Below the pieces are notes generated by a model, which made no database searches, was not told the DNA's origin, and saw only the letters and a program-made list of their open reading frames with translations. 63,868 nucleotides of DNA from Falsigemmobacter intermedius (lineage in GTDB: Bacteria > Pseudomonadota > Alphaproteobacteria > Rhodobacterales > Rhodobacteraceae), in the NCBI RefSeq assembly GCF_004054105.1, contig NZ_SBLC01000019.1:1-63868 (forward strand). The letters are read 5' to 3'. Position numbers and translations under genes: made by a program. Position 1 is the stretch's first letter. Every line of letters begins with the position of its first letter. Below, in pieces: positions 25,037 to 56,855 of the stretch.

Positions 25037-25072
25037 AAGCGCAGTCTGTTCCCTCGTTCTGCGCATTATGCA

Positions 25073-25104: not shown

Positions 25105-25114
25105 CATGCAAAGT

Positions 25115-25153: not shown

Positions 25154-25160
25154 TTGCAGT

Positions 25161-26045: not shown

Positions 26046-26090
26046 CGGGCGATTGAAAACCCCGCGCCAATCAGCGAGATTGCGCGGGTG

Positions 26091-34236: not shown

Positions 34237-34240
34237 TCCC

Positions 34241-35110: not shown

Positions 35111-35726
35111 GCCGCTTGGTGTGATCCTGGCAGGGGGCCTTGCGCGGCGGATGGGCGGCGGAGACAAAGGGCTGCTGGATCTGGGCGGACAGAGCCTTTT
35201 GGGCGAAGTGATCGCCCGTATGGCTCCGCAATGCGCGGGACTGGTGCTGAACGCCAATGGCGATGCGGCACGGTTTGCGGGGTTTGGCCTGCCGGTCATC
35301 CCCGATGGCATCGACGGCTTCCCCGGCCCGCTGGCGGGCGTTCTGGCGGGAATGGAGCGCGCGGCCGAATTGGGGCAAAGCCACATCCTGACCGCCGCCG
35401 CCGATACCCCCTTCCTGCCCCGCGATCTCGGGCCCCGGCTGCGCGACGCGCTGCGCCCGGACCGCCCCATCGCCCTTGCGGCCACCCGGGAAGAGGGGCG
35501 GGTGATCCGCCAGCCGGTCTTTGGCCTCTGGCCGGTGGCGCTGCGCTATGATCTGCGCGCCGCGATCGAAGGGGGGCTTTCAAAAATCGTCCTCTGGACC
35601 GACCGCCACGGCACCGCGCTTGCCGAGTTCGACACCGGCCCGCCGCACCCCTTCTTCAACGTCAATACGCCCGAAGATCTGGCCGAGGCCCGCGCGATCT
35701 GGCACAAAGGACGCACAGAACTCTGA
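35103..35726 (+). CDS. mobA: Molybdenum cofactor guanylyltransferase MobA
   Basis: A 207-residue nucleotidyltransferase that links GMP to molybdopterin to make MGD. The nucleotide-binding signature LAGGLARRMGGGDKGLL starts at residue 9, followed by PDGIDGFPGPLAG and the metal-binding AAADTPFLP. It overlaps fdhD by 8 bp and is followed 10 bp later by the MobB-MoeA fusion. Confidence 0.92.
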   Translation: MSKPLGVILAGGLARRMGGGDKGLLDLGGQSLLGEVIARMAPQCAGLVLNANGDAARFAGFGLPVIPDGIDGFPGPLAGVLAGMERAAELGQSHILTAAADTPFLPRDLGPRLRDALRPDRPIALAATREEGRVIRQPVFGLWPVALRYDLRAAIEGGLSKIVLWTDRHGTALAEFDTGPPHPFFNVNTPEDLAEARAIWHKGRTEL

Positions 35727-37652: not shown

Positions 37653-38756
37653 TCAGATAAGGCCTTTGTCCCTGAGCGCAAGCCGCAGTTCCCCGGCGAT
37701 CGCGATAAGTGATTGACCGACCTGGCTTTCCGGCTCAGTTGCGACAATTGGTCGCCCCAGATCCGCCCCACGGCGCAGCGCCATGGTCAGAGGAACCTCA
37801 CCCAGGAAGGGCACACCGATGCGGCGGGCCTCTTCCCGCGCGCCGCCGTGGCCGAAGATCTCATGCCGTCCGCCGCAGTCCGGGCAGATGAACTGCGACA
37901 TATTTTCGATGACACCGAGCACCGGCACCTCAAGCTTGCGGAACATCGCAATGCCGCGCCGCGCATCGATCAGCGCCAGATCCTGGGGCGTTGAGACGAT
38001 CACCGCGCCCGTGAGCGGACTTTGCTGCACCACGGCCAGCTGCGCATCCCCGGTCCCGGGCGGCATGTCGATCAGCAGCACATCAAGCCGCCCCCAGTCG
38101 ACCTCTGCGATCAGCTGTGTGATGGCCGATTGAATCATCGGCCCGCGCCAGATCATCGCCGTATCGGGATCGACCAGATTGCCCACCGAAAGCGCCTGAA
38201 GGCCCCAGGCCTCCAGCGGCCTCAGGCGGCGCCCGTCCGCCGCCAGCTGCGGCTTTGCCGTCAGACCGAGCAGGGTCGGCACCGATGGGCCATAGATATC
38301 AGCATCGAGCACGCCTACCTTCAGCCCCAGATGGCGCAGCGCCAGAGCCAGCGAGATGGTCGTCGTGCTTTTGCCCACACCGCCCTTGCCGGAGGCCACG
38401 GCGATCACGGCTTTCACGCCTTCAAGCACCTTTGCAGGGGCTTTGGCGGGCTTCAGTTGCGGCGGCGCAGCGGCAGGCTTCGGAGCCTCAGTCCGCTCAG
38501 CGGTCAGCATGACGAGAGCCTTTTGCACCCCCGGAAGACGCTCAGCCGCTTTTTCCGCCGCAAGCCGGACCGGCTCAAAGGCTTCGGCCTCTTCTGCTGT
38601 GACACGGATCGAAAAACTTACCCGGCCCGGCGCGGGTTCGGTCATTGCGCCAAGGCGGCTACTGTCAGCAAGGCTGCGGCCATCCGGGAGCCTTACAGAA
38701 GCCAAAACGGCGCGCAAAGCTGCGCGCCGCCGGTTGAGGTCCATGGGATCGCTCAT
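37653..38756 (-). CDS. Mrp/ApbC family Fe-S carrier P-loop ATPase
   Basis: A 367-residue protein. Residues 1-90 form a MIP18/DUF59-like domain; the deviant Walker A GKGGVGKST is at 123-131, and the dimer-bridging CxxC of Fe-S carriers is in ICPDCGGRHEIFG near residue 290. It overlaps the gamma-subunit gene by four bases, which ties it tightly to the dehydrogenase. It probably delivers 4Fe-4S clusters to the beta or alpha subunit, as Ind1/NUBPL does for complex I. Confidence 0.9.
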   Translation of the reverse strand: MSDPMDLNRRRAALRAVLASVRLPDGRSLADSSRLGAMTEPAPGRVSFSIRVTAEEAEAFEPVRLAAEKAAERLPGVQKALVMLTAERTEAPKPAAAPPQLKPAKAPAKVLEGVKAVIAVASGKGGVGKSTTTISLALALRHLGLKVGVLDADIYGPSVPTLLGLTAKPQLAADGRRLRPLEAWGLQALSVGNLVDPDTAMIWRGPMIQSAITQLIAEVDWGRLDVLLIDMPPGTGDAQLAVVQQSPLTGAVIVSTPQDLALIDARRGIAMFRKLEVPVLGVIENMSQFICPDCGGRHEIFGHGGAREEARRIGVPFLGEVPLTMALRRGADLGRPIVATEPESQVGQSLIAIAGELRLALRDKGLI

Positions 38757-39757
38757 TCTGCCGGGGTCACCTCACCACCGGGGCCACGGCGCTGCACGGC
38801 ACCTTTGGCAAGCTCTTCCTCAAGCCAGAGCGAGTGGTGCTGCTCAGCCCAGTTCACATCGACCTGACCGGTGGTCATGGCGTCAAGCGCCCCTTCGGTG
38901 CCCACGGTGCCGATGTAGATATGACCAAGGATCATCGCCATCATGCCCGAAGCAATCAGAGCATGGGCAATCTGTGCCAGCTGCCAGTCAGTCGCGCTGT
39001 CCAGGAAATAGGGGAACATCAGCAGCAGACCCGAAGCCGCCACCAGGCTGCCGCCCACGACCACACCCCAGAAGACGATCTTCTGACCGGCGTTGAATTT
39101 CTTTGCCGGCGGGTGCTTGCCCTTAACGAGCAGGCCGCCACCCTCTTTCAGCCAGCGCAGGTCCAGCTTGTTGGGGATGTTGTGGCGGACCCACATCAGG
39201 AAGGTGATGACCACACAGACCATGAAGGGCCAGGCGAGGTAATGGTGCGCCAGCTTGCCCAGATAGGTGAGCGAGCCAAAGGCCTCATAGCCAAGCCAGG
39301 GCAGCACGATATAGCGCCCCACGGCCACATTGATGCCCGAGAGGGCCAGAGCGATGAAGCTGATCGCCATGGTCCAGTGCACGGTGCGCTCAAACACGTT
39401 GAAGCGCGTGATGGTGCGGCCGGCACGGCCTGCCTCAATCTTCAGACGGCCTTTGACCACGAAGAAGACCAGCAGCGCCAGCAGCGTGCCGACCAGCGCC
39501 ACGCCCATCACCCGGTCCGAAACCTTCAGGTTAAAGCCCATCCAGTCTTTGTTGGACGGCTTTTGCAGATCCGCCGCATTGTCATCGGGGATCGAGATCC
39601 GGCCCGAGATGGTCTCACCCGGCTTCAGGGCGTCAAGAAGCTGTTGCTCCTGCACCGAAGACGCGGTGGGGTTCACCGGCTGTTGCGCCATAACCGGCGC
39701 GGAAAACCCGAGAGTCGCACCAAGGACCAGGGCTGCAAGTTTAAAACGAAGCGTCAT
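38753..39757 (-). CDS. Formate dehydrogenase gamma subunit (cytochrome b)
   Basis: A 334-residue membrane protein. Residues 1-25 are a signal peptide, then a periplasmic stretch and about four to five transmembrane helices with His residues for two b hemes (FERTVHWTMAISF, LAHHYLAWPF, ALIASGMMAMILGHIYIG). It takes electrons from the Fe-S subunit into the quinone pool. The N-terminal periplasmic domain makes it longer than E. coli FdoI, as in Wolinella and other proteobacterial forms. It overlaps the Mrp gene. Confidence 0.9.
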   Translation of the reverse strand: MTLRFKLAALVLGATLGFSAPVMAQQPVNPTASSVQEQQLLDALKPGETISGRISIPDDNAADLQKPSNKDWMGFNLKVSDRVMGVALVGTLLALLVFFVVKGRLKIEAGRAGRTITRFNVFERTVHWTMAISFIALALSGINVAVGRYIVLPWLGYEAFGSLTYLGKLAHHYLAWPFMVCVVITFLMWVRHNIPNKLDLRWLKEGGGLLVKGKHPPAKKFNAGQKIVFWGVVVGGSLVAASGLLLMFPYFLDSATDWQLAQIAHALIASGMMAMILGHIYIGTVGTEGALDAMTTGQVDVNWAEQHHSLWLEEELAKGAVQRRGPGGEVTPAE

Positions 39758-39769: not shown

Positions 39770-40372
39770 TCAAGCCGATACGTTGACGGTTTCGCCATAG
39801 GCGGTTTTCCAGCCCCAGGCGCCCGAGCCATAGCCACGGGTCACCACGCGCTCACGGTAGATCTCGGCGATGATATCGCCGTCGCCTGCCAGCAGAGATT
39901 TGGTCGAGCACATCTCGGCGCAGAGCGGCAGTTTGCCCTCGGCCAGACGGTTCGCGCCGTATTTCTCATATTCGGCGATCGAGAGATCTTCTTCCGGGCC
40001 GCCCGAGCAATAGGTGCATTTGTCCATCTTGCCGCGCGAACCGAAGTTCGAGGCCTGCGGATACTGCGGCGCACCGAAGGGGCAGGCATAGAAGCAGTAG
40101 CCGCAGCCGATGCAGGTGTCTTTGTTGTGCAGAACCACACCGTCGTTGGTGGTGTAGAAGCAGTTCACCGGGCAGACCTGCGCGCAGGGCGCATCGGTGC
40201 AGTGCATGCAGGCCATCGAGACCGAACGCTCACCCGGCAGACCATCATTGATGGTCACCACGCGGCGGCGGTTGATGCCCCACGGCACTTCATGCTCGTT
40301 TTTGCAGGCGGTGACGCAGGCGTTGCACTCGATGCAGCGGTCCGCGTCGCAGAGAAATTTCATACGTGCCAT
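39770..40372 (-). CDS. fdhB: Formate dehydrogenase beta subunit (4Fe-4S)
   Basis: A 200-residue protein with four cluster-binding groups: CIECNACVTAC, CMHCTDAPCAQVCPVNC, CIGCGYCFYACPFG and a split set CTYC plus CAEMC. It transfers electrons from the molybdopterin subunit to the cytochrome b. No transmembrane anchor or Tat signal is seen, so it should ride with the alpha subunit. It sits between alpha (10 bp) and gamma (12 bp). Confidence 0.92.
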   Translation of the reverse strand: MARMKFLCDADRCIECNACVTACKNEHEVPWGINRRRVVTINDGLPGERSVSMACMHCTDAPCAQVCPVNCFYTTNDGVVLHNKDTCIGCGYCFYACPFGAPQYPQASNFGSRGKMDKCTYCSGGPEEDLSIAEYEKYGANRLAEGKLPLCAEMCSTKSLLAGDGDIIAEIYRERVVTRGYGSGAWGWKTAYGETVNVSA

Positions 40373-40382: not shown

Positions 40383-43355
40383 TTATGCTGCCGCTTCGAT
40401 CCGGCAAAGCGTCGCCTTGCCTTCGTGCATGCCCGTCACCGGATCGTAACCATAGGTGGTCACGGCGTTGACGGATTCCCCCAGCACGATCGGATCGGTG
40501 CCCTGAGGATATTTGCCGCGCTGATCTTCGCCCATGAACCAGCCCGCAAAGTGGAAGGGCATGAAGGCCACGCCCGGTGCCACACGGTCGGTTACCAGCG
40601 CTTTCACGCGGACTTTCGCGTTGTCCTCCGGGCCGTAGACCCAGATCCAGGAGCCGTCTTTGATGCCCTTGGCCGCCGCATCCTGGGTGTTCACTTCGCA
40701 GAACATGTCCTGCTGCAGCTCTGCAAGCCAGGGGTTCGAGCGGGTCTCTTCACCACCCCCCTCGAATTCAACGAGGCGGCCCGAGGTGAGAACCGTCGGG
40801 AACTGTTCAAAGAGCTTCTGCTCAACCGCGCGGGCCTGAACGGTGTGACCAATGTTGGGCATACGCAGCTGGCGGCCGTCTTCGCGGGTCGGATAATCCG
40901 CCACCAGATCGGGACGGGGGGTATAGATCGGCTCGCGGTGGACCGGCACCGGGTCGGGCAGGTTCCAGGCGACCACACGCGCCTTGCCGTTGCCGAAGGG
41001 CACACAGCCATGCTTGATCGCCACGCGCTGAATGCCGCCCGACAGATCGAGGGTCCAGGACACTTTGGCGATGGCCTCAGGATTGTTATTGCCGATCTTT
41101 TCAATTACGGCCCGCTCTTCAGCGGTCAGCTCGGAATCCCAGCCCAGCTTCTGCAGCAGGGCCATGGTGAATTCCGGGTAACCATCCTCAATGTCCGAGC
41201 CAACCGGCCAGCTGTCTTCCGCCAGCAGCGACACGCCCTCACGCTCAAGCCCGAAGCGCGGACGGAAGGCACCGCCACCCTCTGCGACCGGGATATTGGT
41301 GTTGTAAAGCACATGGGTGCCCGGGTGCCGCATCTCCGGCGTGCCCCAGCAGGGCCAGGGCAGACCGTAGTAATCACCACCGACCTCCGGGTCGTCCTTG
41401 GGGGCGCGCAGGGTGATGATGTCAAACTTATGCTGATTGCGCATATGCGCTTTCAGACGCTCCGGCGACTGACCGGTGTAGCCGGTCGACCAGCCACCGC
41501 GGTTAATCTCGCGCAGGATCGATTCTGCCGTCGGCTCTTTCGAGAATTTGCCGTCGACCATTTCGAAAGTTTTGAACATCTCATCCGCAAAGCCGAGACG
41601 CTGCGACAGACGGTAGATCACCGCATAGTCGTTGTCGGATTCAAAGATCGGCTCAACGACCTTCTCGCCCCATTGGATCGAGCGGTTCGACGCGGTCCGG
41701 GTGCCTGCCACCTCAAAGTTGGTGCAGATCGGCAGCAGATAGGTGTTGTCGGTGCGGGTGTGCAGCGCGGCAAAAGTGGTCGGATGCGGGTCGGCAACGA
41801 CCAGCAGATCCAGAGCGTTCATGCCGTTCTGTGCCGCTTTCATCCGCGGGATGGTGTTGGCGCCGTGACCGAAAACGATCATCGCCTTCACGCCGTCCTG
41901 CTGATCGACATCCTCGGAATCGAGCATGGTGGCGTCGAACCAGCGGGTCGAGGGGATCCCTGAGACTTCCATGTTCTGCGCCCGGGTCCGCGCTTCGCGG
42001 CCCTGTTTCGCAGGCACTTCGTCGAAACGGCTCTCGATATAGCTGAAGGGCACGTCCCAGACCCGGCACCAATGCGCCCAGGCCGCCGGAGCGAGGCCGT
42101 AGTAGCAGGGCAGGTTGCCCACATCGAGACCCATATCCGTCGCGCCCTGCACGTTGGTGTGGCCGCGGAAGATATTGGCGCCCATGCCGATGTCACCGAC
42201 GTTGCCGGTGGCCAGCAGCAGGGTGCAGTAAGCGCGCACGTTGGCGGTGCCAACGGTGTGCTGCGTACCGCCCATACACCAGATGAAGGTCGCAGGCTTC
42301 ACCGTGGCGAAGGTCTCTGCCACGCGCTTCACAACCTCTTCTTTAAGGCCGGTCACGCGCTCCACTTCCGCCGGGTTCCACTTCATGATTTCGGCTTTCG
42401 CCTCATCAAAACCGTAGACGCGCTTGCGGATGAACTCTTTGTCTTCCCAGCCGTTCTGGAAGATGTGCCAGAGCATGCCCCAGATCACCGCGATATCGGT
42501 ACCCGGACGGATGCGCACAAATTCGGTGGCATGGGCCGCGGTGCGGGTCATGCGCGGATCGAGCACAAAGACATTCGCCCGCTGGGTTTCTTTGCCCGAC
42601 AGGATGTGCTGCATCGCCACAGGGTGCGCCTCAGCCGCGTTCGACCCCATGAAGATGATGGTCTTGGCGTTGCGGATGTCGTTGTAGCTGTTGGTCTGCG
42701 CGCCATAGCCCCAGGTGTTCGCCACACCGGCCACGGTGGTCGAGTGGCAGATCCGGGCCTGGTGGTCGACGTTGTTGGTGCCCCAGAAGGCAGCAAACTT
42801 ACGGAAGAGGTAAGAGGCCTCGTTGGTAAATTTCGCCGAGCCCAGCATGTAAACCGAGTCTGCGCCCGATTTCTCGCGGATCTCCAGCATCTTCGCGCCG
42901 ATTTCGTCCAGCGCCTGGTCCCAGGTGATGCGCACCCAGTCACCGCCGACTTTCTTCATCGGATATTTCAGACGGCGGTCGCCATGCACGACTTCCCGCG
43001 ACGATGCGCCCTTGGCGCAATGCGAGCCGCGGTTGATCGGGCTTTCAAAAGCCGGCTCCTGACCGACCCAGACGCCGTTTTGAACTTCGGCGATCACCGA
43101 GCAGCCCACCGAGCAGTGGGTGCACATGTTCTTGCGCCGCTCTGCCGGGGCCGCGTGATCGTGGGGCGTCGCCGCCTCTGCACGCTCAAAGAGACCGCCC
43201 GAGAGCGAGGACACGGCTGCAAGGCCGCCCACAGCCACGCCCGAACGGCGCAGGAAGCTGCGGCGGTCGAGCTTGCGCTGACCCATGCCGAGGAAGCTTT
43301 GCGCCAGCGCGCCGCCGGTGCCGGAGGCATGAATATTTTTACGTTTGATCAGCAT
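40383..43355 (-). CDS. fdhA: Formate dehydrogenase alpha subunit, bis-MGD, Tat-exported, Cys form
   Basis: A 990-residue catalytic subunit that oxidises formate to CO2 at the periplasmic side. RRSFLRR at 31-37 is a Tat signal, set about 30 residues inside the protein. The first 4Fe-4S cluster uses Cys78, Cys81, Cys85 and Cys113. The metal ligand is Cys203 followed by His204 (ARICHSTT); it is a plain TGC codon, not a selenocysteine UGA. Neighbouring tungstate import genes make a W-containing enzyme plausible, but Mo cannot be excluded. It begins one base after the stop of a small Tat protein gene. Confidence 0.92.
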   Translation of the reverse strand: MLIKRKNIHASGTGGALAQSFLGMGQRKLDRRSFLRRSGVAVGGLAAVSSLSGGLFERAEAATPHDHAAPAERRKNMCTHCSVGCSVIAEVQNGVWVGQEPAFESPINRGSHCAKGASSREVVHGDRRLKYPMKKVGGDWVRITWDQALDEIGAKMLEIREKSGADSVYMLGSAKFTNEASYLFRKFAAFWGTNNVDHQARICHSTTVAGVANTWGYGAQTNSYNDIRNAKTIIFMGSNAAEAHPVAMQHILSGKETQRANVFVLDPRMTRTAAHATEFVRIRPGTDIAVIWGMLWHIFQNGWEDKEFIRKRVYGFDEAKAEIMKWNPAEVERVTGLKEEVVKRVAETFATVKPATFIWCMGGTQHTVGTANVRAYCTLLLATGNVGDIGMGANIFRGHTNVQGATDMGLDVGNLPCYYGLAPAAWAHWCRVWDVPFSYIESRFDEVPAKQGREARTRAQNMEVSGIPSTRWFDATMLDSEDVDQQDGVKAMIVFGHGANTIPRMKAAQNGMNALDLLVVADPHPTTFAALHTRTDNTYLLPICTNFEVAGTRTASNRSIQWGEKVVEPIFESDNDYAVIYRLSQRLGFADEMFKTFEMVDGKFSKEPTAESILREINRGGWSTGYTGQSPERLKAHMRNQHKFDIITLRAPKDDPEVGGDYYGLPWPCWGTPEMRHPGTHVLYNTNIPVAEGGGAFRPRFGLEREGVSLLAEDSWPVGSDIEDGYPEFTMALLQKLGWDSELTAEERAVIEKIGNNNPEAIAKVSWTLDLSGGIQRVAIKHGCVPFGNGKARVVAWNLPDPVPVHREPIYTPRPDLVADYPTREDGRQLRMPNIGHTVQARAVEQKLFEQFPTVLTSGRLVEFEGGGEETRSNPWLAELQQDMFCEVNTQDAAAKGIKDGSWIWVYGPEDNAKVRVKALVTDRVAPGVAFMPFHFAGWFMGEDQRGKYPQGTDPIVLGESVNAVTTYGYDPVTGMHEGKATLCRIEAAA

Positions 43356-43356: not shown

Positions 43357-43575
43357 TTACTTCTTCTCCGGCCAGACGAAGCGATTGACGTGATAGAAGC
43401 TCTTCACATGCTCACTGTCAGGCTGATAGCGCGCCTTGGTGCGTGCATCGCCGGTTTCCTTGCCAAAAGCCGGAAGCGCGCCGCCCCCGGCGAGCCCCAT
43501 AGCTGCGAGCCCGAGTGAGGCGCCGAAAAAGCCGCGCCGTCCGACTTTCGGGCCAGTCCTTTTGCTGTCTGACAT
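43357..43575 (-). CDS. Small Tat-signal protein of formate dehydrogenase clusters
   Basis: A 72-residue protein with a Tat signal (GRRGFFGASLGLAAMGL) and a short polar tail ending FVWPEKK. Small proteins of this kind regularly lie directly in front of fdhA in proteobacteria (formate dehydrogenase region Tat target family). No enzyme domain is present. I start at ATG43575 (MSDSKRTG). It may be exported with, or help to assemble, the dehydrogenase. Confidence 0.85.
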   Translation of the reverse strand: MSDSKRTGPKVGRRGFFGASLGLAAMGLAGGGALPAFGKETGDARTKARYQPDSEHVKSFYHVNRFVWPEKK

Positions 43576-43589
43576 TCTCTCCACTCCCC

Positions 43590-44213
43590 TCAGGCCGCCT
43601 CAGTGGCATCTGCGTCCAGCGCAAAGCCCTGAGCTTCGATTTCCATAAACAAACGCCCCACACGGCCCACTGCGGCATAGAATTTTGCCGCCGGTGCCTT
43701 TTCGAGATCGTCAAAGAACATCCCCGCCCAGGGGGCGAGGTGGCGATTAAAGAAGAGGGCCTCACCCGGACCCGCCTCTCCCGCCGTCAGGCTGCCGACT
43801 GCAAAAGCCGCCATGACCCCGCAGAGCAGCGCAATCCGGTCTTCCGGGTCATGATCCCCCGCCCGCCGCGCAACCCCGAGCGCCGCGAGATCGCCGCGCA
43901 GAACGGCCAGCGGGCGCTCATTGAGAAAGCCGGTCATATAGAAGGAGGCATAGGGCAGAAGCTCGCCCCGACCCACGCCGATAAAGAGGTCGAAAAACTC
44001 GCGCTCCGCCGCCTCAGGGGTGGTGCCCGCCGCAGCTTTCGCCAGATCGGCCCAGGCAGCACCCAGCACGGACCCCTCATCAGGCGTCAGATCGGACAGC
44101 GCCCGAAGCACATCGGCCGGGGGAGCGGCACTGAGCAGCAGGGCGAGAACCTCATAGGTCTCTGCCCGGCTTTCATCAGTCTCATCCCGGGGCTGGGAAG
44201 CGAAACGGGTCAA
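43590..44213 (-). CDS. TorD/DmsD-like molecular chaperone
   Basis: A 207-residue all-helical protein of the TorD family, recognised by the YEVLALLLSAAPPADVLRAL start, the EFFDLFIGVGRGELLPYASFY block and DPEDRIALLCGVMA. Members bind Tat signals or apo-molybdoenzymes until the cofactor is inserted. Its position just ahead of the Tat protein and fdhA points to the alpha subunit as client. Its upstream gap holds a 22-bp imperfect palindrome likely to regulate the operon. Confidence 0.87.
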   Translation of the reverse strand: MTRFASQPRDETDESRAETYEVLALLLSAAPPADVLRALSDLTPDEGSVLGAAWADLAKAAAGTTPEAAEREFFDLFIGVGRGELLPYASFYMTGFLNERPLAVLRGDLAALGVARRAGDHDPEDRIALLCGVMAAFAVGSLTAGEAGPGEALFFNRHLAPWAGMFFDDLEKAPAAKFYAAVGRVGRLFMEIEAQGFALDADATEAA

Positions 44214-44247
44214 ATCTTACCTCTTACCTGGCAAAACGCTGGGTACA

Positions 44248-44269
44248 CTGACAACCGATTGGCGGTCAG
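44248..44269. promoter_or_regulatory. Imperfect palindrome upstream of the formate dehydrogenase operon
   Basis: CTGACAACC (44248-44256) and GGCGGTCAG (44261-44269) are inverted with 7 of 9 paired positions and a GATT spacer. They lie about 35-56 bp upstream of the TorD-like gene, in an 86-bp gap. The dyad size suits a LysR- or similar dimeric regulator; the protein is unknown. Confidence 0.45.
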
Positions 44270-44299
44270 CGTAAAAAACTACACTCTTTACAGGTTTAT

Positions 44300-44857
44300 T
44301 CAACCAGGAAGCGCGCCACCATGCCGCAGTGAGAGCCTGAGGGCCGGTATCTCTGCGACATTTTGTCCCTCACCCGTCTCGGGGGGCAGGTCTTCGGGCG
44401 TTTCCGGGGGAATTTCCGCCTCGGGCTCGGGCGGCTGAGGCGGCTCCGCGCGCTTCAGAAGGTCCAGACTTTTCTGCACGATGTCTTCGCCAAGCGAGGC
44501 CGAATAGCCCACCGGACCGGTGCCGGTATTGAAGTCCCAGGCATAGTCGCGCGCCACATCAAGATGGGTCGAAATGACAGGATCGGCCGCCCAGGCCCGG
44601 CGCAGCGCGGCATTCTTCAAAGCCTTGGGGACAAAGCTTTGCAGGAAGGGCCGGATATCTGTGGAGGCGGTGATCGTCTCAAGCGGGGGCAGCTCCGCCA
44701 GCAGCCGCTCCAGCTCGGCGCCCTCCGGCGCGGGTGCTGCCGCGGGTTCCGGCAGCGATTCGGGCGGCGAATCTGGCGGGGATCCGGTCTCCGGTGCAGG
44801 CTCTGCGCGGCGGTTTTCCCGCGCCCGCGCCGACCAGCGCTCAAAGAAGCTGCTCAT
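44300..44857 (-). CDS. DUF3306 domain protein
   Basis: A 185-residue protein. The N-terminus is FFERWSARARENRR, then a Pro/Glu/Ala-rich linker, and a conserved C-terminal part with FLQSFVPKALKNAALRRAW and DYAWDFNTG. This matches DUF3306, which accompanies formate dehydrogenase genes. No transmembrane segment or metal motif is evident; function is unknown. It overlaps the DUF3305 gene by four bases, so the two are coupled. The tail is again acidic and proline-rich. Confidence 0.82.
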   Translation of the reverse strand: MSSFFERWSARARENRRAEPAPETGSPPDSPPESLPEPAAAPAPEGAELERLLAELPPLETITASTDIRPFLQSFVPKALKNAALRRAWAADPVISTHLDVARDYAWDFNTGTGPVGYSASLGEDIVQKSLDLLKRAEPPQPPEPEAEIPPETPEDLPPETGEGQNVAEIPALRLSLRHGGALPG

Positions 44858-45447
44858 CGCTGCACCCTCTGGCTGCGCGGCAGACCCGCCGGGGTCAGTT
44901 TTGCCACCTCCGCCTCCGTCCGGCGCTGGCCGGGGCGATGGCCGCCCGGCAGAATGCGCGGCGCGCTGAGGCTTGGATCTTCCGCTTCAATGCCCGAGCG
45001 GCGCTTTTTGAGAAACCGCTCTTCCTCCGGGAAAAGCGCTGCAAATTCAGCGATATGGGCGATCAAAACCTCAGGCATCGGCAGACGTTCAACGCGAAGG
45101 CCGGGGTCGGTGGCCATGGCCTCGCCCTCAAAGGGATCGGCGGTGACCAGATGCAGCTCCGCCTTTTCGGGATCCTCCGCATGCGACAGCGAGACCCAGA
45201 GTGAGGGCGGCGACATCGCCAGATTGGCCCGCAGATTGGCAGCATCCCCGGGATGCAGCTGCAACTGATGCACCCCCATGAACCAGGTCTCAACCCCGCT
45301 CTCGCTGCGGCTCATCAGACTGCGCGGCGGCAGCGGCGGTGCGGGCATCATCAGCAGCGCCGGTTGCAAAACCCGCGCGCCCCATTTCGTCGCCGGGGGC
45401 CAGGAGCGGGCGATAACCGCGACAGGAATGGGGGGATGCGCGCTCAT
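44854..45447 (-). CDS. DUF3305 domain protein
   Basis: A 197-residue protein. The core IPVAVIARSWPPATKWGARVLQPA and the WVSLSHAEDPEKAELHLVTADPFEGEA region (given in parts) fit DUF3305, found next to DUF3306 in formate dehydrogenase clusters. It resembles a soluble adaptor; there are no cofactor motifs. Overlaps by four bases on both sides link it to DUF3306 and the next gene. Confidence 0.82.
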   Translation of the reverse strand: MSAHPPIPVAVIARSWPPATKWGARVLQPALLMMPAPPLPPRSLMSRSESGVETWFMGVHQLQLHPGDAANLRANLAMSPPSLWVSLSHAEDPEKAELHLVTADPFEGEAMATDPGLRVERLPMPEVLIAHIAEFAALFPEEERFLKKRRSGIEAEDPSLSAPRILPGGHRPGQRRTEAEVAKLTPAGLPRSQRVQR

Positions 45448-46442
45448 GCGGCCTCTCCTTTGGTGGCGACCAGTGGCAGCCCGTCAACCAGGTTCTGCGG
45501 CTTGAACTGCACGACCAGCTCTTTTCCGGTGGCCAGCATCGCCCAGGTCGGGCGGTTTTCAAGCCCCGCGCGCAGCGGGCTTCCTGGCGCAAAATCAATG
45601 GTGAAAAGCCCCACAAGCTGCACCGCCGGCGTCTTTCCCTGCCAGAGTGCATTGCCATACTCCGTCCCCTCACGGGTCAGGCCCACAAACCAGGCAAGAT
45701 CGGCTTTTTCTTCGCGGGTCACCGGCAGAACCGTGACTTCCACCCGGTGCAGATGGCGGATGAAGGCGCGGATCGCCTCTGCCAGTCCCATGCGGGAGGC
45801 CGGGTTGCCGCCGAAATTCTGCACCATGGTATGGGCATCAGAGCGGCTCCACCAGGTCCAGGCATTGTGATCGCCCAGAACGTCCAGCCCCTCAACGCCC
45901 CCCTCCATCAGAGCGGCGAGCGGATTGGAATGGACCTTCGCTTCCATTTCCTGCTGCAGTTCCAGATCCACCAGATGCAGATGGCCGTCCTTCAGCCAGC
46001 CATATTGCGGGCGGAAGAACATCTCGGCGGCGCGCAGCACATGGACATCTTCACAGCCATCAAGCGCATTGCGCAGGATCAGCTGCACCAGTTGCTGCAG
46101 AAGCACCGGCGCGGTCGGCACCCGGTTCCGGATCAGCGCCAGATAGCCGCCCTCAACCGTACCGGCTGAGATCAGCGTGTCGCGCAGCGCCAGCACCAGT
46201 TCCCAGTTCTCGCGCCCGTCCGGATCAGCCAGCGCCGCTACTTCCGCCGCAGTGACCTTCGCCAGAGGATCAGCCAGGAGCCGAGCATGAAGGGCGCGTT
46301 CAGCCTCACAGGCCTCCTCCGGCGGGGCCAGTTCCGGCCGCGCCAGCCAGGCCAGCAGCAATTCCGGCGTGACCTCCAGCCAGCCGTCGCTGCGGCGGCG
46401 CGTCAGATGGTGGCCCGAGGCAACCCAGAACTCTCTCATCAC
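45444..46442 (-). CDS. Uncharacterised protein of the formate dehydrogenase cluster (DUF6352-like)
   Basis: A 332-residue protein of no known fold. Visible features are a conserved start REFWVASGHHLTRR, a helical first half, and the block WTWWSRSDAHTMVQNFGGNP with His and Asn that could form a metal or catalytic site. I associate it from memory with the family called DUF6352. Overlaps with genes on both sides place it inside one translational unit with DUF3305, DUF3306, the next protein and the ligase-like gene. Confidence 0.75.
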   Translation of the reverse strand: MMREFWVASGHHLTRRRSDGWLEVTPELLLAWLARPELAPPEEACEAERALHARLLADPLAKVTAAEVAALADPDGRENWELVLALRDTLISAGTVEGGYLALIRNRVPTAPVLLQQLVQLILRNALDGCEDVHVLRAAEMFFRPQYGWLKDGHLHLVDLELQQEMEAKVHSNPLAALMEGGVEGLDVLGDHNAWTWWSRSDAHTMVQNFGGNPASRMGLAEAIRAFIRHLHRVEVTVLPVTREEKADLAWFVGLTREGTEYGNALWQGKTPAVQLVGLFTIDFAPGSPLRAGLENRPTWAMLATGKELVVQFKPQNLVDGLPLVATKGEAA

Positions 46443-47005
46443 GTCTCTCCCGAACGAAGGCCGGCGAAAAGATCGATCCCCTCGCCCTGTTCGTCTTCGT
46501 CACTTTGCACAAAATGAAACGGCCTCTCGTGGCCACTGAGGCCAGGAGCCCCATAGGCCGTCTCCTCACGCGGGCGCAGCGAGCGGAACCGCTCACGAAG
46601 CTCACCCGCCTCATCTTCTTCGCGGTGAAGCGCAATGATGCGCCCCTCGTCGTGGCCGCGGCAGAGCTCTTCGGCGAAGGCAATCTCTTCCTCTGCGGCC
46701 CCTCTCGCGGTCTGCAGATCCGGCGCGCCGAGATGGGCCACAAAGCTTTGCGCCAGTGCCTCAACCGCCGCCACCCGCTCAGAAAAGCTCACCCGCGTGA
46801 CCACGGCCAGCGTTGAAAAGCCAAAGGACTGCACGCCCAGAAAAGCCGAGCGAAAGGCCACCCGCTCTTTGCGGCTCAGCCCCTCAAAGGGGCGGCCATG
46901 CCACAAAAAGCCCCCCGGCACCGCCCATTCCCCCGGCTCGGCGGCGGGCGAGAACAAAATGCCGTCAGAGGCATCAAGCCTGATGGTGCGCAGCAGGCTT
47001 ACCAC
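46439..47005 (-). CDS. Uncharacterised protein of the formate dehydrogenase cluster (DUF6505-like)
   Basis: A 188-residue soluble protein. The N-terminus LLRTIRLDASDGILFSPAAEPGEWAVPGGFLW (seen in two parts) is followed by a segment FLGVQSFGFSTLAVVTRVS and an acidic tail. No catalytic motif stands out. I place it tentatively in DUF6505. It overlaps the ligase-like gene by seven bases and the next gene by four. Confidence 0.7.
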   Translation of the reverse strand: MVSLLRTIRLDASDGILFSPAAEPGEWAVPGGFLWHGRPFEGLSRKERVAFRSAFLGVQSFGFSTLAVVTRVSFSERVAAVEALAQSFVAHLGAPDLQTARGAAEEEIAFAEELCRGHDEGRIIALHREEDEAGELRERFRSLRPREETAYGAPGLSGHERPFHFVQSDEDEQGEGIDLFAGLRSGET

Positions 47006-47697
47006 TTCGGCCCCCCGCGCTCTGCATCGCGCCAGCGCTCTTCATTCAGCACAGTGGCCAGCGGCGGCAGTTGCAGACGCCCGTCCACAATCTCAGCCCC
47101 CTTCAGCGCTTCATGCCCCTCAACCCGGTCGAGAAGGCGGCGCAGAAGCGCATCCACGCCGTCATGCTGCCAGCGATCCACGATCAGCTTCAGCCAGGAG
47201 GCAAAGCTTTCGATCATCGCCGAACTCGCGCCGAATTCCTCTTCCTCAAGCGAGGTGGTGAAGGGGTAAAGACCGGGCTCTTCAAGACCCGGGCGCTCAG
47301 ACAGAATTTCGGCGGCAAAGATCACCCATTCGGGCAAGCCGTCTTCGCCCTGCGGGCCGGCCTGCCAGCGAGCCCCGGCGATGAGGGCGCTGTCATAAAG
47401 GATCCGGTCCGGAAATTCGACGCGGACCTGACGCTCTGGCAGACCATGCTGCACCAGGGTCTCACACAGCGCCGCGAGCGCCGCGACATAGCCCAGTTCA
47501 GCCTCACGCGCGGTGGAAACCAGCGGCGGCCCCGGCTCCATCACAACGGCAATCGCAAGGATGCCGCCGCTTTCGCGCCACAGAAGGGTGCCCGCCCCCT
47601 CATGGGCCTCCGCCGCCGCCAGTGCCAGCAGATCCCCCTCCGGGGCCTCAATGGCCCGGAAAGGGGGCGGCAACAGCAGGCGCGGCAGGTCAGACAT
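46999..47697 (-). CDS. Biotin/lipoate A/B ligase-like protein, catalytic motifs altered
   Basis: A 232-residue protein related to BirA/LplA ligases. The glycine-rich nucleotide loop GRGRxG is replaced by EGAGTLLW, and the WPND-IL...K motif reads FPDRILYD...IAGAR, so the usual catalytic lysine is absent. It may bind an acyl-adenylate or protein partner without ligating it. It is the first gene of the five-gene minus-strand set and diverges from the ferredoxin gene. ATG47697 fits the family start better than the longer frame. Confidence 0.75.
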   Translation of the reverse strand: MSDLPRLLLPPPFRAIEAPEGDLLALAAAEAHEGAGTLLWRESGGILAIAVVMEPGPPLVSTAREAELGYVAALAALCETLVQHGLPERQVRVEFPDRILYDSALIAGARWQAGPQGEDGLPEWVIFAAEILSERPGLEEPGLYPFTTSLEEEEFGASSAMIESFASWLKLIVDRWQHDGVDALLRRLLDRVEGHEALKGAEIVDGRLQLPPLATVLNEERWRDAERGGPKW

Positions 47698-47785
47698 AGA
47701 GGGTCTCCGAAAACAGGGCCGACAGGGTGACAAACCGGCCACAATCGCCTAGATCAGCACAGGGCCTGCCGGACAAAATAACACT

Positions 47786-47805
47786 TTCTGCAGGATTTAG
47801 CAGAA
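47786..47805. promoter_or_regulatory. Inverted repeat in the divergent ligase-like/ferredoxin promoter
   Basis: TTCTGC (47786-47791) and GCAGAA (47800-47805) are a perfect inverted repeat with an 8-bp spacer in the 150-bp gap between the divergent genes. It could coordinate both arms of the maturation cluster. Confidence 0.45.
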
Positions 47806-47847
47806 CCCTTGCCCCCGTGCACCCCCCCCTGAGACAGAAGGACAGCC

Positions 47848-49818
47848 ATGACCCGCCACTCCGCCTGCAGCCTGACCTGCAACTGCCTCGGCTCTCTGAT
47901 GCCTGATGCGGCGGCTCTCAGCCGTGCCGGTTTTGCGCCCATGGGGGGCGTGGCAACCGAGCTTTGCGGTGAAGATCTCAACCTTGTCAGCGATGCGGTC
48001 GGCGCTGCCCTGCAGGAGGGGCGGGAACTGGTCATCGGCTGCCGTCGTAAGGAAAGCTTCTTCCGCGATCTGCTGGCGGGTTCTGAGATTGATCTGAACC
48101 CCGGCTTTGTCGATGTGCATGCCCATGCCCTCTGGTCTGATGAGGCCGCAGAGGCGGGGCCGAAGCTCGCCGCTCTGCACGCCAAAGCCGCCATCGAGCT
48201 GCCCCCCGTCACCACGGTGAGCTACACATCGCAGGGGGTGACGCTGATCCTCGGCCGCGACGACCGCGCTCTGGAGCTGGCACGGGCGCTGCAGGGACAA
48301 CTTGATGTGACCGTGCTGCTGCAGCCTGGCGCAGAGGCACTGCCGCGCAGCACCGATGCTTTCCCGGTGGCTCAGGGCCTGGTGAAAAAGGCCGAGGGCT
48401 GGCTTGGCGGCTTTAAGCTGGTGATCGACGCCTATTCGCTGGCCCACCCTGCCCCGCGCAGCGGCTATGGCTTTGGCGAGGGGCGCGACGGCGCGGTCTC
48501 AAACTGCGATCTGGTCATTGATCTGACGGGGGCGGCGCCCCTCTTCAGCGCCCATGATCTGCGCCCGGGCTATCTGCGCGATGACCCCGCACGCCCCGGC
48601 GTGGTGGCGGAGCTTGCCCTGAAGGCCGCAGGCCATATCGGAACCTTTGACAAAGAGCGCTTTGTCAGCCTGAACCCCGGTCTTTGCGCCCATTCGCGCA
48701 ACCGCATCTCAGGCTGCAGCAACTGCGTTGATCTTTGCCCCACCGGGGCGATCACCCCGGGCGGTGATGTGGTCTCGATCGATCCGATGATCTGCGCGGG
48801 CTGCGGGCAATGCGTCGCCGCCTGCCCGGGCGGCGCGATCAGCTATGACCTGCCCCCCGTCGGCACCCTGGCCGAGCAGCTTCGCGCCATGCTGACCGCC
48901 TATGAGACTGCGGGCGGCACGGCGCAGCCGGTGATCCTTTTTGCTGACAGCAAACACGGCATGGCACTGATTGAGCTTTCGGCCCGCCTTGGGCGCGGTC
49001 TTCCGGCCCACGTGCTGCCCTTTGAGGTCAATGAGCTGACCCGTCTTGGGCCCGACACCCTCGCCGCGACCCTGGCCTGGGGGGCTGACGTGGTGCTCTT
49101 GGCCCCGGAGCGTCCCGGACATCCGCTCGACGGGCTGCAGGCGACGCTGCGGCTGATCGGTGATCTGACCGGGCCGATGGGCTATGGCGCTGAGCGGCTG
49201 GTGCTTTTGCAGACCGACGATCCGGAGGTGCTGGAGAGCCACCTGCGCCAGCCGCGCGGCAGCGCGCGTCCTGCCGCCTCGCGCTTCCTGCCGCCCTCAG
49301 ACAAGCGCGGCCTGATGACCACCGCGCTGACCGAACTCAACCGTCTGGCCCCCGCAAGCCGGAGCCTGGTGCCGCTTGCCAAGGGCGCGCCCTTTGGCGC
49401 GGTGGTGCTGGATACTTCGGCCTGCACGCTCTGCATGGCCTGCGCCGGGGCCTGCCCGGCCGGTGCGCTGATCGACAACCCCGAAACTCCGATGCTGCGC
49501 TTCACGGAGAGCGCCTGCCTGCAATGCGGCATCTGCGAAGCCACCTGCCCGGAGAAGGCCATCACGTTGACCCCGCAGGCCGATTTCACCGCCTGGGATC
49601 AGCCCAAACGCGTGCTTCACGAGGAAGAGCCCTTCTGCTGCACCGGCTGCGGCAAGGGCTTTGGCACCCGCTCAGGCATTGAGCGGATCATGGCAAAGCT
49701 TGAGGGGCACTGGATGTTCACCGGCGCGCGCGGCAATACCGGCATCTCGATGCTGACGCTTTGCGAAGACTGCCGCGTCAAACGCGCGGCCGAGGCCGGA
49801 TTTGAGGCGCATCACTGA
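47848..49818 (+). CDS. Multi-cluster 4Fe-4S protein with hydrogenase-FeS-like domain
   Basis: A 656-residue soluble iron-sulfur protein. An N-terminal segment has a CSLTCNC motif; residues 280-330 form a two-cluster ferredoxin (CSNCVDLCP, CAGCGQCVAACP); about 350-490 resembles an MvhD-like FeS/flavin-associated domain; 520-575 is a second two-cluster ferredoxin (CTLCMACAGACP, CLQCGICEATCP); the tail has CCTGCGKGF and CEDC. It may be an electron donor or carrier for dehydrogenase maturation or linked metabolism. It diverges from the ligase-like gene and precedes DUF2478. Confidence 0.8.
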   Translation: MTRHSACSLTCNCLGSLMPDAAALSRAGFAPMGGVATELCGEDLNLVSDAVGAALQEGRELVIGCRRKESFFRDLLAGSEIDLNPGFVDVHAHALWSDEAAEAGPKLAALHAKAAIELPPVTTVSYTSQGVTLILGRDDRALELARALQGQLDVTVLLQPGAEALPRSTDAFPVAQGLVKKAEGWLGGFKLVIDAYSLAHPAPRSGYGFGEGRDGAVSNCDLVIDLTGAAPLFSAHDLRPGYLRDDPARPGVVAELALKAAGHIGTFDKERFVSLNPGLCAHSRNRISGCSNCVDLCPTGAITPGGDVVSIDPMICAGCGQCVAACPGGAISYDLPPVGTLAEQLRAMLTAYETAGGTAQPVILFADSKHGMALIELSARLGRGLPAHVLPFEVNELTRLGPDTLAATLAWGADVVLLAPERPGHPLDGLQATLRLIGDLTGPMGYGAERLVLLQTDDPEVLESHLRQPRGSARPAASRFLPPSDKRGLMTTALTELNRLAPASRSLVPLAKGAPFGAVVLDTSACTLCMACAGACPAGALIDNPETPMLRFTESACLQCGICEATCPEKAITLTPQADFTAWDQPKRVLHEEEPFCCTGCGKGFGTRSGIERIMAKLEGHWMFTGARGNTGISMLTLCEDCRVKRAAEAGFEAHH

Positions 49819-49819
49819 A

Positions 49820-50344
49820 ATGACCCGCCCGCTCCTGGCCGCCCTTCTCTTTGATGACGGCGCCGCCCCCGATCCGATGATCGCGGCGGTGCTGGAATGC
49901 CATCCGGGTCTGCGGGTCGCGGGCCTTTTGCAGTCCCCCGTCCGCGAGGGGGATTGCGACTGCCGCGATCTGACGGTGCGCAATCTGCAGACCGGAGAGG
50001 TCCATGCCATCACCCAGAACCTTGGCACTCAGTCGCGGGGCTGCCGCCTTGATGGCGGCGCGCTGGCAGAACTTGCGGGCGGTCTGTTGCAGGCGCTGGA
50101 CGAGGGGCCGGATCTGCTGATCCTCAACCGCTTCGGCAAATCCGAGGCGGAGGGCGGCGGCCTGCGTCAGGTGCTGGAGGCGGCACTCCTGCGCGGCATA
50201 CCCACCCTCGCTCCGGTCAACCCGCGCCACATCGGTCTCTGGCGCGACTACGCCGGTGATCTGGCAGAAGAGGTGCCCTGTCAGCCGCAGGCTCTGGAGA
50301 ACTGGATTTCCCGTGCACTGGAGCCGGGCGAAATCTTCCTTTGA
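49820..50344 (+). CDS. DUF2478 protein (predicted nucleotide-binding, molybdenum-associated)
   Basis: A 174-residue protein. It begins with LLAALLFDDGAAPD, contains CDCRDL and GTQSRGCRLDGGALAEL, and the strand LLILNRFGKSEAEGGGLR. These are marks of DUF2478, often encoded near molybdenum transport and molybdoenzyme genes. The GRFGK-like part recalls P-loop relatives but a Walker A is not intact. It starts one base after the stop of the ferredoxin gene. Function is unknown. Confidence 0.78.
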   Translation: MTRPLLAALLFDDGAAPDPMIAAVLECHPGLRVAGLLQSPVREGDCDCRDLTVRNLQTGEVHAITQNLGTQSRGCRLDGGALAELAGGLLQALDEGPDLLILNRFGKSEAEGGGLRQVLEAALLRGIPTLAPVNPRHIGLWRDYAGDLAEEVPCQPQALENWISRALEPGEIFL

Positions 50345-55433: not shown

Positions 55434-55958
55434 GACCATCCTCCAACGCTTGAACAATGCGTGCGAGGTGCACGCCATGACGGGGAAACCCCTTCGGGAG
55501 GGAAATGTTCCATCGCAAAACACCGGCCGGAGCCGATGCGGCGGGCGTCAGCCGGAGACCGGCCCCGTAGTGGCGGGTGTAGGGGCGGGTGGGCTGCCCG
55601 CTGTCGAGGGGCGGCGGAGGCGGCAGAGGCAAGAATGAGTATTTAAGAAAAGCCAAAGGGCTGCCCTGGCTCTCCATTCAGGCGGCGCTTTTGGCGAAGC
55701 GGGGGCGGCGCGGACCGGGGGGTGTAAGGCAGGGGTTGTAACGAGGGGTTGGAGCGCTCAGCGGTTTGGGGTCACAGGAAGGTGAAGGGGACGGCCGCGA
55801 TTTCATGCTAAGCTTAAATCGTCGCCGGGCCACATGCGGTTGCCTCTGACAGTTGTCTTGTCCCTGATCTGCAAATGCGCACGGCGACGACATCCCCCCT
55901 TGAAGCTGTCTGCAGCCTTTGATCTCTGGCTCTGACGGCGCAGGCTTTGGGGATCTTC
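55434..55958. other. 525-bp gene-poor gap with a possible structured leader
   Basis: No reading frame here has coding character. The part from 55440 to 55800 is ordinary GC-rich spacer, with a short AT-richer patch at about 55635-55655. From 55819 on, distant inverted repeats suggest a folded leader of the cobW gene. Confidence 0.45.
55819..55890 (+). promoter_or_regulatory. Possible structured 5' leader upstream of the CobW gene
   Basis: TCGTCGCCG (55819-55827) and CGGCGACGA (55882-55890) are perfect 9-bp arms that close a 54-base interval; a small AGCTG/CAGC-type stem follows at about 55903-55915. Leaders of metal chaperone genes can carry riboswitches or repressor sites. I could not match it to the cobalamin box or a Zur site. 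Confidence 0.35.
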
Positions 55959-56855
55959 ATGACACCGGTGGTTTTGATAACGGGCTTTCTTGGCGCGGGG
56001 AAAACCACGCTGATCAACCAGTTGCTGCGCGGCGATCACGGGCTGCGGATCGCGGCCATCGTCAATGACTTTGGTGCGATCAATATCGATGCGGCGCTGC
56101 TGGCGGATGCGGCAGACAGCGTGATCGGGCTGGAAAACGGCTGCATCTGCTGCGCGCTGCAGGGTGATCTGTTGCGCAGCCTGCGGCTTGTGCTGGAGCG
56201 CAGCCCCGATCTGATCGTGATTGAGGCCTCGGGCGGCTCGGATCCGCGGGGGATCCTTGAGGTGCTTTCAGATCCGATCCTGACCGGTTTACTCCGCACC
56301 GATGCCGTGGCCGCGCTGGTCGATGCCGAAGATCTGGCCGCGGCGCCGCAGCGGCTGCGCGATCCGCTCTGGCAGGCGCAGGTCCGGGCGGCGGATTTCG
56401 CGCTGATCAGCAAAGGCAGCCTCAGCCCGGGGCTTCAGGCGCAGCTGGCAATGTTTCGCAAGCCGTTGATTTCCCTGCAGGACCAGGGGATCCCCCTCGC
56501 GCTTTTGCTGGGCGAGAGCGGGGCTTTGCGCAAAGCCCCCGAGCCGGGGCGCGTGACGGCGGATCACCTGGCGAGCCTTGAGTGGGAAAGCCCCCTGCCC
56601 CTTGACCCTGAGGGCTTCACCGCAGCGCTGCAGGAGATTGCGCCGCAGCTTCTGCGCGCCAAGGGCTGGCTGCGCTTTGCCCCTGCGCCCGGGGATCTGC
56701 ATCTTCTGCAGCTTGCAGGGCAACGCGCGAGCCTCAGCCCCGCGCCGCCGCGCAGCGATGTGACTGGCGCAAAGCTGGTGCTGATCGGCCTGCGGGAGAG
56801 CTTTGAGCCTGAGGAGTTAGCCCGGGCTCTCGATCAAAGCCGCCGGATCGGCTGA
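55959..56855 (+). CDS. CobW/COG0523 family GTP-binding metal chaperone
   Basis: A 298-residue G3E GTPase. Walker A GFLGAGKTT is at 9-17, VNDFG at 35-39, and the metal-binding CxCC motif CICC at 62-65. The usual guanine-specificity motif NKxD reads SKGS, so nucleotide choice may differ. Such proteins hand Zn, Co or other metals to enzymes. ATG55959 starts at the P-loop strand; the frame extends a few codons upstream. Its 3' end overlaps the convergent amidohydrolase by 22 bp. Confidence 0.85.
   Translation: MTPVVLITGFLGAGKTTLINQLLRGDHGLRIAAIVNDFGAINIDAALLADAADSVIGLENGCICCALQGDLLRSLRLVLERSPDLIVIEASGGSDPRGILEVLSDPILTGLLRTDAVAALVDAEDLAAAPQRLRDPLWQAQVRAADFALISKGSLSPGLQAQLAMFRKPLISLQDQGIPLALLLGESGALRKAPEPGRVTADHLASLEWESPLPLDPEGFTAALQEIAPQLLRAKGWLRFAPAPGDLHLLQLAGQRASLSPAPPRSDVTGAKLVLIGLRESFEPEELARALDQSRRIG

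Follow-up and report, generated by a model that had tools for sequence, protein, structure and literature searches.

NapF-type ferredoxins and the NarJ/TorD chaperones (redox enzyme maturation proteins, REMPs) are dedicated, non-exported partners of one exported molybdo- or tungstoenzyme each. Enzymes of the FdhA class, the alpha subunits of formate dehydrogenases (FDHs), are folded, loaded and proofread in the cytoplasm ahead of export by the twin-arginine translocation (Tat) system (PMC4464133). Bay et al. (2015) further reported a DUF3305/DUF3306 gene pair upstream in 60% of dmsD-fdhGHI operons, with a 4Fe-4S gene and a Tat-signal protein appearing in a figure legend; the pair was labelled "putative membrane proteins" and was given no function there (PMC4464133). 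For tungsten, the described FDH1 of Methylorubrum requires MoeA1, MobB and FdhD, with the gene cluster moeA1-mobB-tupBCA (PMC13197769). Here we report on a contig of Falsigemmobacter intermedius (NZ_SBLC01000019.1, assembly GCF_004054105.1), analyzed over its whole length of 63,868 nucleotides and referred to as the window, in which six genes accompany an FDH of the FDH3 type. They encode DUF3305, DUF3306, DUF6352 and DUF6505 proteins, a biotin-ligase-like protein and a multi-cluster 4Fe-4S protein. We consider it probable that the six proteins form a cytoplasmic module dedicated to the maturation of this Tat-exported, cysteine-dependent FDH, which most probably carries tungsten. Enzyme-specific maturation is a known kind of process; new are the parts and, probably, the link to a metal.

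The distribution of each family was analyzed in a first sample of 179 Pseudomonadota genomes (at least 90% completeness requested), in which an FDH3 genome was defined by an FdhA match of at least 970 bits, the next match outside these genes scoring 242.7 bits, and in which the 4Fe-4S protein was searched with its own profile at E <= 1e-40. FdhA of the FDH3 type was found in 24 genomes, and DUF3305, DUF3306 and the 4Fe-4S protein (one match per genome) were found in exactly these 24 and in none of the 155 others. DUF6505 (16 genomes) and DUF6352 (11 genomes) were likewise confined to FDH3 genomes. PF16917, the family of the ligase-like protein, is common overall (102 of the 179 genomes at E <= 0.001); the subfamily present in the window, delimited by a line of more than 100 bits that was drawn after the list had been seen, occurs in 15 genomes, all of them with FDH3 and all with DUF6505. 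The next match, at 95.9 bits in genome G016, has intact biotin-ligase motifs and was not counted, and the rest score at most 58.4 bits. The link to FdhA is far beyond chance, each core family giving a Fisher p value of 2.7e-30 and the values over all linked families ranging to 2.3e-11. These values overstate the association because the genomes are related, but the FDH3 genomes do come from 16 of 108 genera and from 10 families. A sequence-only reading of this DNA had tied the set to FDH and asked whether its families might be as common without fdhA as with it. In this one sample they are not, DUF3305, DUF3306, the 4Fe-4S protein, DUF6505 and DUF6352 all being absent from the FDH3-less genomes, and the tie is tighter than that reading could know. 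The core of the set is therefore DUF3305, DUF3306 and the 4Fe-4S protein, which are present in every FDH3 genome of the sample, together with the TorD chaperone; the ligase-like protein with DUF6505, and DUF6352, are an added layer found mainly in the class of the window.

The surroundings of FDH3 were followed in named loci, obtained by an FdhA-alignment scan of a genome collection (84,980 species by its description). The best 80 of at least 596 stretches (589 confirmed) were taken and 24 without full flanks were dropped, leaving 56 complete loci; as the best-scoring 80 were chosen, near relatives are over-represented, and some gene orders are blurred by over-long starts of open reading frames (ORFs). 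Titles among the best 80 include Methylobacterium, Bradyrhizobium, Bosea, Roseomonas, Azospirillum, Sulfitobacter and others, genera which we take to be Alphaproteobacteria. DUF3305 and DUF3306 were each found in 49 of the 56 complete loci, the 4Fe-4S protein in 48, DUF6505 in 47, the ligase-like protein in 46, DUF6352 in 45, TorD in 53 and Mrp in 13. DUF2478, counted by the sequence-only reading as a seventh member, was rejected: it occurs in 18 genomes of the first sample, eight with FDH3 and ten without (a mild enrichment, p = 6e-4), and lies near FDH3 in one of the 56 loci, in the window and in G016.

The enzyme of the window is of the FDH3 type, its beta subunit scoring above the equivalog cut-off (Table 1) and its alpha subunit carrying a Tat motif (RR.FL at residue 31) and a Cys-His pair. 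This pair, C203-H204, is invariant in 11 of 11 sequences and is presumably the active-site pair of FdhA. The TIGR01591 Fdh-alpha equivalog model is matched at 451.9 bits, below its cut-off of 666.25, which places the window FdhA outside the common Fdh-alpha equivalog. While FdhA and a small protein encoded beside it carry Tat motifs, a Tat motif pattern found no such motif in the six set proteins and a simple 19-residue Kyte-Doolittle scan no convincing membrane span, other signal peptides lying outside the scope of these two scans; their highest 19-residue mean (1.63) falls inside a 4Fe-4S site of the 4Fe-4S protein, and TorD reaches 1.99. The six proteins should therefore act before export. 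The best explanation for proteins that are seemingly confined to the cytoplasm, and that occur only with FDH3 and always with FDH3, is that they load and proofread it. Of the two roles offered by the sequence-only reading, assembly or redox coupling, the first is the better one and the second the less likely, because the six proteins lack a convincing membrane span as well as the Tat motif that FdhA has.

That reading had also named the set a candidate for an undescribed pathway; "undescribed" does not hold for DUF3305 and DUF3306, since their place beside dmsD-fdhGHI was reported in 2015 (PMC4464133). The fdhGHI operons with torD or dmsD described there have the same neighbours as the FDH3 set, and not all of them need be of the FDH3 type; in contrast to the label given there, no convincing membrane span is seen here in either protein, and DUF6352, DUF6505, tungsten and the ligase-like protein go unmentioned in the accessible part of that paper (PMC4464133). 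In the portion of the open-licence full-text literature that was covered, nothing beyond PMC4464133 was found on DUF3305, DUF3306, DUF6352, DUF6505, DUF2478, PF16917, PF10649, BPL_LplA_LipB_2, 3bfm/TM1040_0394 or fdh3A/fdh3B as FDH factors. Compared with the NapF, NarJ and TorD systems, the FDH3 set adds proteins of uncharacterised families.

The case for tungsten comes from a TupA-like binding protein gene, counted at E <= 1e-20, whose co-occurrence with FDH3 is new here. It was present in 29 genomes of the first sample, comprising all 24 FDH3 genomes and five of the 155 others. In a second, class-wide sample of 182 genomes, overlapping the first in five DUF3305 genomes and some further ones, 28 of the 29 genomes with DUF3305 had it, compared with 38 of the other 153; 24 of these 29 were new and 23 of the new ones had TupA. 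It lay on the same contig within 40 kb of DUF3305 in 21 of 48 DUF3305 genomes. The FDH1 of Methylorubrum is a soluble enzyme. It is described as a heterodimer; FDH3 carries the extra module. The window resembles the MoeA1-MobB-MobA-FdhD route of FDH1 in having genes for tungstate uptake, MoeA/MobB, MobA and FdhD, and a text search of the paper on that route for "DUF" and "FDH3" gave none (PMC13197769). Fusions of MoeA with a periplasmic-binding-protein-like domain (MoeA-PBP) are reported to co-occur with TupA (PMC11733289), and MobB-MoeA fusions have been tied in print to tungsten-biased systems. The window has a tungsten-type block at 22796-29044, composed of a TupABC-like transporter (the TupB model matching at 160.1 bits, below its cut-off of 320), a gene resembling a helix-turn-helix regulator with a periplasmic-binding-protein domain (HTH-PBP), a MoeA_N protein and a MoeA-PBP fusion; the nearer end of the block is about 9 kb from mrp of the fdh operon. 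Its MobB-MoeA fusion adjoins fdhD and mobA.

Several observations count against a tungsten-specific maturation module. Co-occurrence would also suit an electron-transfer role, and no functional datum was found for the six proteins. The DUF3305 protein weakly matches the C-terminal part of an NCBIfam model for a DUF3305-containing MobA (model positions 221-367 of 382, at 41.4 bits, far short of the cut-off of 820), which counts in favour of the module; against it, a MobA-DUF3305 fusion was seen in none of the 89 DUF3305 ORFs of the examined loci. DUF3305 and DUF3306 are both missing, over about 10 kb, from seven of the 56 complete named loci, and three of these also lack TorD; in Azospirillum picis a second FDH3 locus carries the core, the sole such case seen among the seven. 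With regard to the metal, no match in either sample (0/179, 0/182) reaches the TupA equivalog cut-off of 400 bits, so that "tungstate" rests on the family name, and one DUF3305 genome (G271) has no TupA at E <= 1e-20. Related FDHs can take molybdenum or tungsten. The same maturation module might therefore serve a molybdenum enzyme, with the TupA link arising from other tungsten enzymes, an explanation which contradicts the metal and leaves the module itself in place. It would account for the presence of TupA in genomes without FDH3, which means that tungstate uptake has other clients, for the small number of named loci (just 7 of 56) with a TupA-like gene within about 10 kb of FDH3, and for the fact that the published tungsten client in Methylorubrum (M. 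extorquens AM1) is FDH1 (PMC13197769). The near-constant presence of the TupA-like gene in both samples and its frequent proximity to DUF3305 speak against it, as does, more weakly because four candidates were scored per genome, the finding that a further, non-FDH3 FdhA-like match (E <= 1e-60) is present in just five of the 24 FDH3 genomes. FDH1 may simply be another tungsten client, and we regard a molybdenum enzyme as possible though rather unlikely.

The 4Fe-4S protein (656 residues) is a flavin-less derivative of HdrA of heterodisulfide reductase, for which the comparison structures were PDB 8rvu and 5odc. It is composed of an N-terminal four-cysteine domain, a Rossmann-like domain, two 4Fe-4S sites, a linker, two further 4Fe-4S sites and a C-terminal CxxC...CxxC. 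The N-terminal and Rossmann-like domains align with HdrA (8rvu) at 26.1 bits and the C-terminal ferredoxin domain at 53.6 bits, and the HdrA2 model matches residues 282-419. Among 23 sequences the N-terminal cysteine set is kept in 20, the other three lacking the region; the four ferredoxin-type sites have 16 cysteines, of which 15 occur in 23/23 and one, C319, in 20/23, and the C-terminal CxxC...CxxC is kept in 23/23. The FAD motif GxGxxG has been lost, a loose GxGxxG/A being present in four of the 23 sequences and the window reading LILGRDDRALE at this place; HdrA proper was rejected as an identification on this ground. In contrast to HdrA, the protein has an extra 2x4Fe-4S domain and the C-terminal CxxC...CxxC, and no HdrB or HdrC is among the identified genes of the window cluster, no search for them having been made elsewhere. 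A NapF-type ferredoxin model matches residues 514-603 at 42.9 bits, short of its cut-off of 102.2; compared with NapF-type ferredoxins the protein is far larger and of HdrA ancestry.

This kinship, the four (nearly) invariant four-cysteine sites with the N-terminal one in most members, and the single strong match in every FDH3 genome of the sample are also what would be expected if the HdrA-derived protein and its companions were electron-transfer partners, shuttling electrons between FDH3 and a cytoplasmic pool, or bifurcating them, with no role in building the enzyme. Against this, the Tat motif is present in FdhA and missing from the 4Fe-4S protein, and the enzyme already has a cytochrome b gamma subunit. 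Bifurcation would need the FAD motif that has been lost, members in five genomes outside the class of the window do without the N-terminal cluster domain, and DUF3305 and DUF3306 would be left unexplained. We consider electron transfer to be an unlikely function for the set.

The ligase-like protein belongs to the same family as PDB 3bfm, which was deposited as biotin protein ligase-like with its function unassigned and which matches the family profile of the window protein with E 2.2e-76; BirA matches the same profile with E 2.4e-06. The sequence-only reading had described the protein as biotin/lipoate ligase-like; an active ligase was rejected because both ligase motifs are missing from the family: the Gly-rich adenylate loop, which we take to be represented by GRGRxGRxW, was found by pattern in none of 40 sequences, and a lysine at the aligned place of BirA Lys183, presumably in the catalytic-lysine motif KWPND, in one of 40. 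The BirA-like gene of G016, which served as a positive control, keeps both motifs. The protein is thus best described, on its motifs, as a putative pseudo-ligase. HdrA-like proteins and lipoate-carrier ligases cooperate in the sHdr sulfur pathway. This precedent, together with the clear Pfam BPL_LplA_LipB_2 match, could suggest that the protein puts a lipoyl- or biotin-like group on a partner acting as sulfur or electron carrier for FDH3; given the loss of both motifs, and with the subfamily missing from nine of the 24 FDH3 genomes, such a modification seems very unlikely.

Two further families have confident AlphaFold models: that of DUF6352 has a mean predicted local distance difference test (pLDDT) score of 94.7 and that of DUF3305 one of 85.6, with the last 50 residues of DUF3305 poorly predicted. 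Neither model matched a PDB structure at E <= 0.001, which is no proof of new folds, and the DUF3305 model had no match at this threshold among viral models. Profiles of DUF3305, DUF6352 and DUF6505 gave nothing credible against PDB sequences, and profile comparison saw no relation between DUF3305 and DUF6505.

The role that we infer for the set, maturation of FDH3, could proceed as follows. TupABC would import tungstate, from which MoeA-type and MobB/MobA proteins would make the tungsten-bis-molybdopterin guanine dinucleotide cofactor (W-bis-MGD), to be sulfurated by FdhD. DUF3305 (and DUF3306) would dock MobA/FdhD onto apo-FdhA held by TorD, while insertion or reductive activation would draw on the HdrA-derived protein for electrons or Fe-S clusters, Mrp possibly being the Fe-S carrier. 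The pseudo-ligase, which may bind a nucleotide, DUF6505 and DUF6352 would be binding or proofreading subunits, and the loaded FdhAB would then be exported. Every FDH3 would depend on the core trio, and a subset also on the ligase-like/DUF6505 pair and DUF6352. A bolder and distinctly speculative version, to which we give little credence at present, is a tungstopterin-loading machine in which a complex of pseudo-ligase, DUF6505 and DUF6352 would bind the pterin dinucleotide by reuse of the adenylate pocket of the ligase fold, DUF3305 and DUF3306 would pass it from MobA/FdhD to apo-FdhA, and the flavin-less HdrA derivative would supply low-potential electrons for insertion or sulfuration under air; if true, this would let aerobic bacteria make a tungsten FDH.

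In Vibrio cholerae we take VC1516-VC1518 to be the core trio. The genes VC1510-VC1518 are reported all to rise in two riboflavin mutants, ribD and ribN (log2 1.0 to 2.8; PMC5816637); among their products are two hypothetical proteins and an iron-sulfur protein as well as FDH subunits and a chaperone, and such a co-expression would fit the maturation model. Metal-dependent FDHs are wanted for CO2 reduction and are hard to produce outside their hosts, and the core trio with the tungstate importer names specific components that may be missing from a production host. Several families of unknown function gain a testable role, and the link to TupA suggests that ordinary bacteria of soil and sea use tungsten.

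Annotated loci with the gene order of the window are found on plasmid pB of Sinorhizobium meliloti LMB1 and on p131_1 of Bradyrhizobium sp. 131, each with fdh, torD and all six set genes. The cluster appears to move horizontally. In an FdhA tree of 54 of 105 sequences, built by a quick method with Shimodaira-Hasegawa-like approximate likelihood ratio test (SH-aLRT) support only, the window FdhA falls within a clade of Hyphomicrobiales type, where it groups with Paracoccaceae metagenome-assembled genomes (MAGs), Pararhodobacter, Natronohydrobacter and one Phyllobacteriaceae MAG. The family of the window is represented in the first sample by four other FDH3 genomes, which have a different FdhA clade and a different gene order; the cluster was thus probably acquired horizontally. 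The distance from fdh to the 4Fe-4S gene, DUF6352 and DUF6505 is about 30 to 380 kb in G016, and that to DUF6352 is 2.8 Mb in G019 and about 180 kb in G175, yet all have been retained, which argues for shared function over mere neighbourhood. That the genes are passive passengers riding with fdh on mobile DNA, as the mobility of the cluster might suggest, is hardly credible given this retention and the persistence of co-occurrence across several gene orders. The dispersed accessory genes of G016 (C1:1236439, 1554561 and 1652768) form a natural unlinked module. In six FDH3 loci (L130, L141, L143, L145, L147 and L148) all six accessory genes are missing over a range of about 10 kb, and L130, L143 and L147 are additionally without torD; in the FdhA tree, which did not include L148, the loci L130, L141, L143, L145 and L147 fall outside the 26-row clade to which the window belongs.

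A Pfam scan of the window confirmed the genes of the sequence-only reading and their positions (Table 1), as well as the 4-7 base overlaps among the five minus-strand genes, which are 7 between the ligase-like gene and DUF6505 and then 4, 4 and 4. The listed GTG start of the ligase-like gene is probably 45 bases early, the true start probably being an ATG at 47697, as this in-frame ATG lies near the start of relatives; the shift leaves the 7-base overlap unchanged. Two units separate from the fdh operon, as had been proposed, were not found: 86 bases after DUF3306 the same strand continues with torD-tat-fdhA-fdhB-fdhC-mrp at gaps of at most 12 bases, and the minus strand at 37.6-47.7 kb is one co-directional gene run from the pseudo-biotin-ligase to mrp. 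The 4Fe-4S gene and DUF2478 diverge from this run, beginning at 47848, and their 17-base overlap exists only with the upstream TTG as the start of DUF2478. On the other side of the fdh operon are FdhD, for which the NCBIfam FdhD models match below their cut-offs, a MobA-like gene and the MobB-MoeA fusion.

Table 1. Coordinates of the FDH3 gene set, the FDH3 operon and the cofactor and transport genes in the window.
Feature	Position	Strand	Evidence
TupABC-like tungstate ABC (ATP-binding cassette) transporter	22796-25111	-	TupA and TupB model matches
TupA-like binding protein	22796-23779	-	TupA model, 224.5 bits, cut-off 400 unreached
TupABC-like ATPase	23631-24362	-	
TupABC-like permease	24338-25111	-	
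MoeA-PBP fusion	27119-29044	+	NF011068, 720 bits, cut-off 534
FdhD/NarQ-family sulfurtransferase	34205-35110	+	PF02634, 240 bits
MobA-like nucleotidyl (NTP) transferase	35040-35726	+	PF12804, 112.4 bits
MobB-MoeA fusion	35737-37482	+	NF011060, 530.4 bits, cut-off 532 narrowly missed; start approximate, inside a longer listed ORF
Mrp/NUBPL-like Fe-S carrier	37653-38756	-	PF10609, 323 bits; 4-base overlap with the gamma gene
Gamma subunit, cytochrome b	38753-39757	-	TIGR01583, 147.8 bits, cut-off 115.85
FDH3 beta subunit	39770-40372	-	NCBIfam NF038355 (fdh3B), 341.5 bits, cut-off 240
FDH3-type FdhA (alpha subunit)	40383-43355	-	Tat motif, Cys203-His204
Small Tat-motif protein, directly upstream of fdhA	43357-43584	-	RRxFF motif
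TorD/NarJ-family chaperone	43590-44213	-	PF02613, 81 bits, cut-off 22.2
DUF3306 protein (core of set)	44300-44857	-	Pfam, 60.3 bits, cut-off 25
DUF3305 protein (core of set)	44854-45447	-	Pfam, 81.7 bits, cut-off 25
DUF6352 protein	45444-46442	-	Pfam, 142.8 bits, cut-off 25
DUF6505 protein	46439-47005	-	Pfam, 169.9 bits, cut-off 23.9
Biotin-ligase-like protein	46999-47742	-	Pfam BPL_LplA_LipB_2, 105.3 bits, cut-off 27
HdrA-derived multi-cluster 4Fe-4S protein (core of set)	47848-49818	+	Several Pfam Fer4 families
DUF2478	49802-50344	+	Pfam, 153.7 bits, cut-off 22.3

The small Tat-motif protein has no Pfam or NCBIfam match, and each of the 56 complete named loci contains a relative. A WD40 protein with a hydrophobic N-terminus and a C-terminal CxxCH (c-type cytochrome) motif is present in 34 of the 56 loci (for example L163:5281-6576 and L164:5258-6547), in 19 of these within 1 kb of the 4Fe-4S gene; it has no relative among the 335 ORFs of the window and might accept electrons in the periplasm. 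At 55947-56855, to the right of the set, the window encodes a CobW-family GTPase (PF02492, CobW_C).

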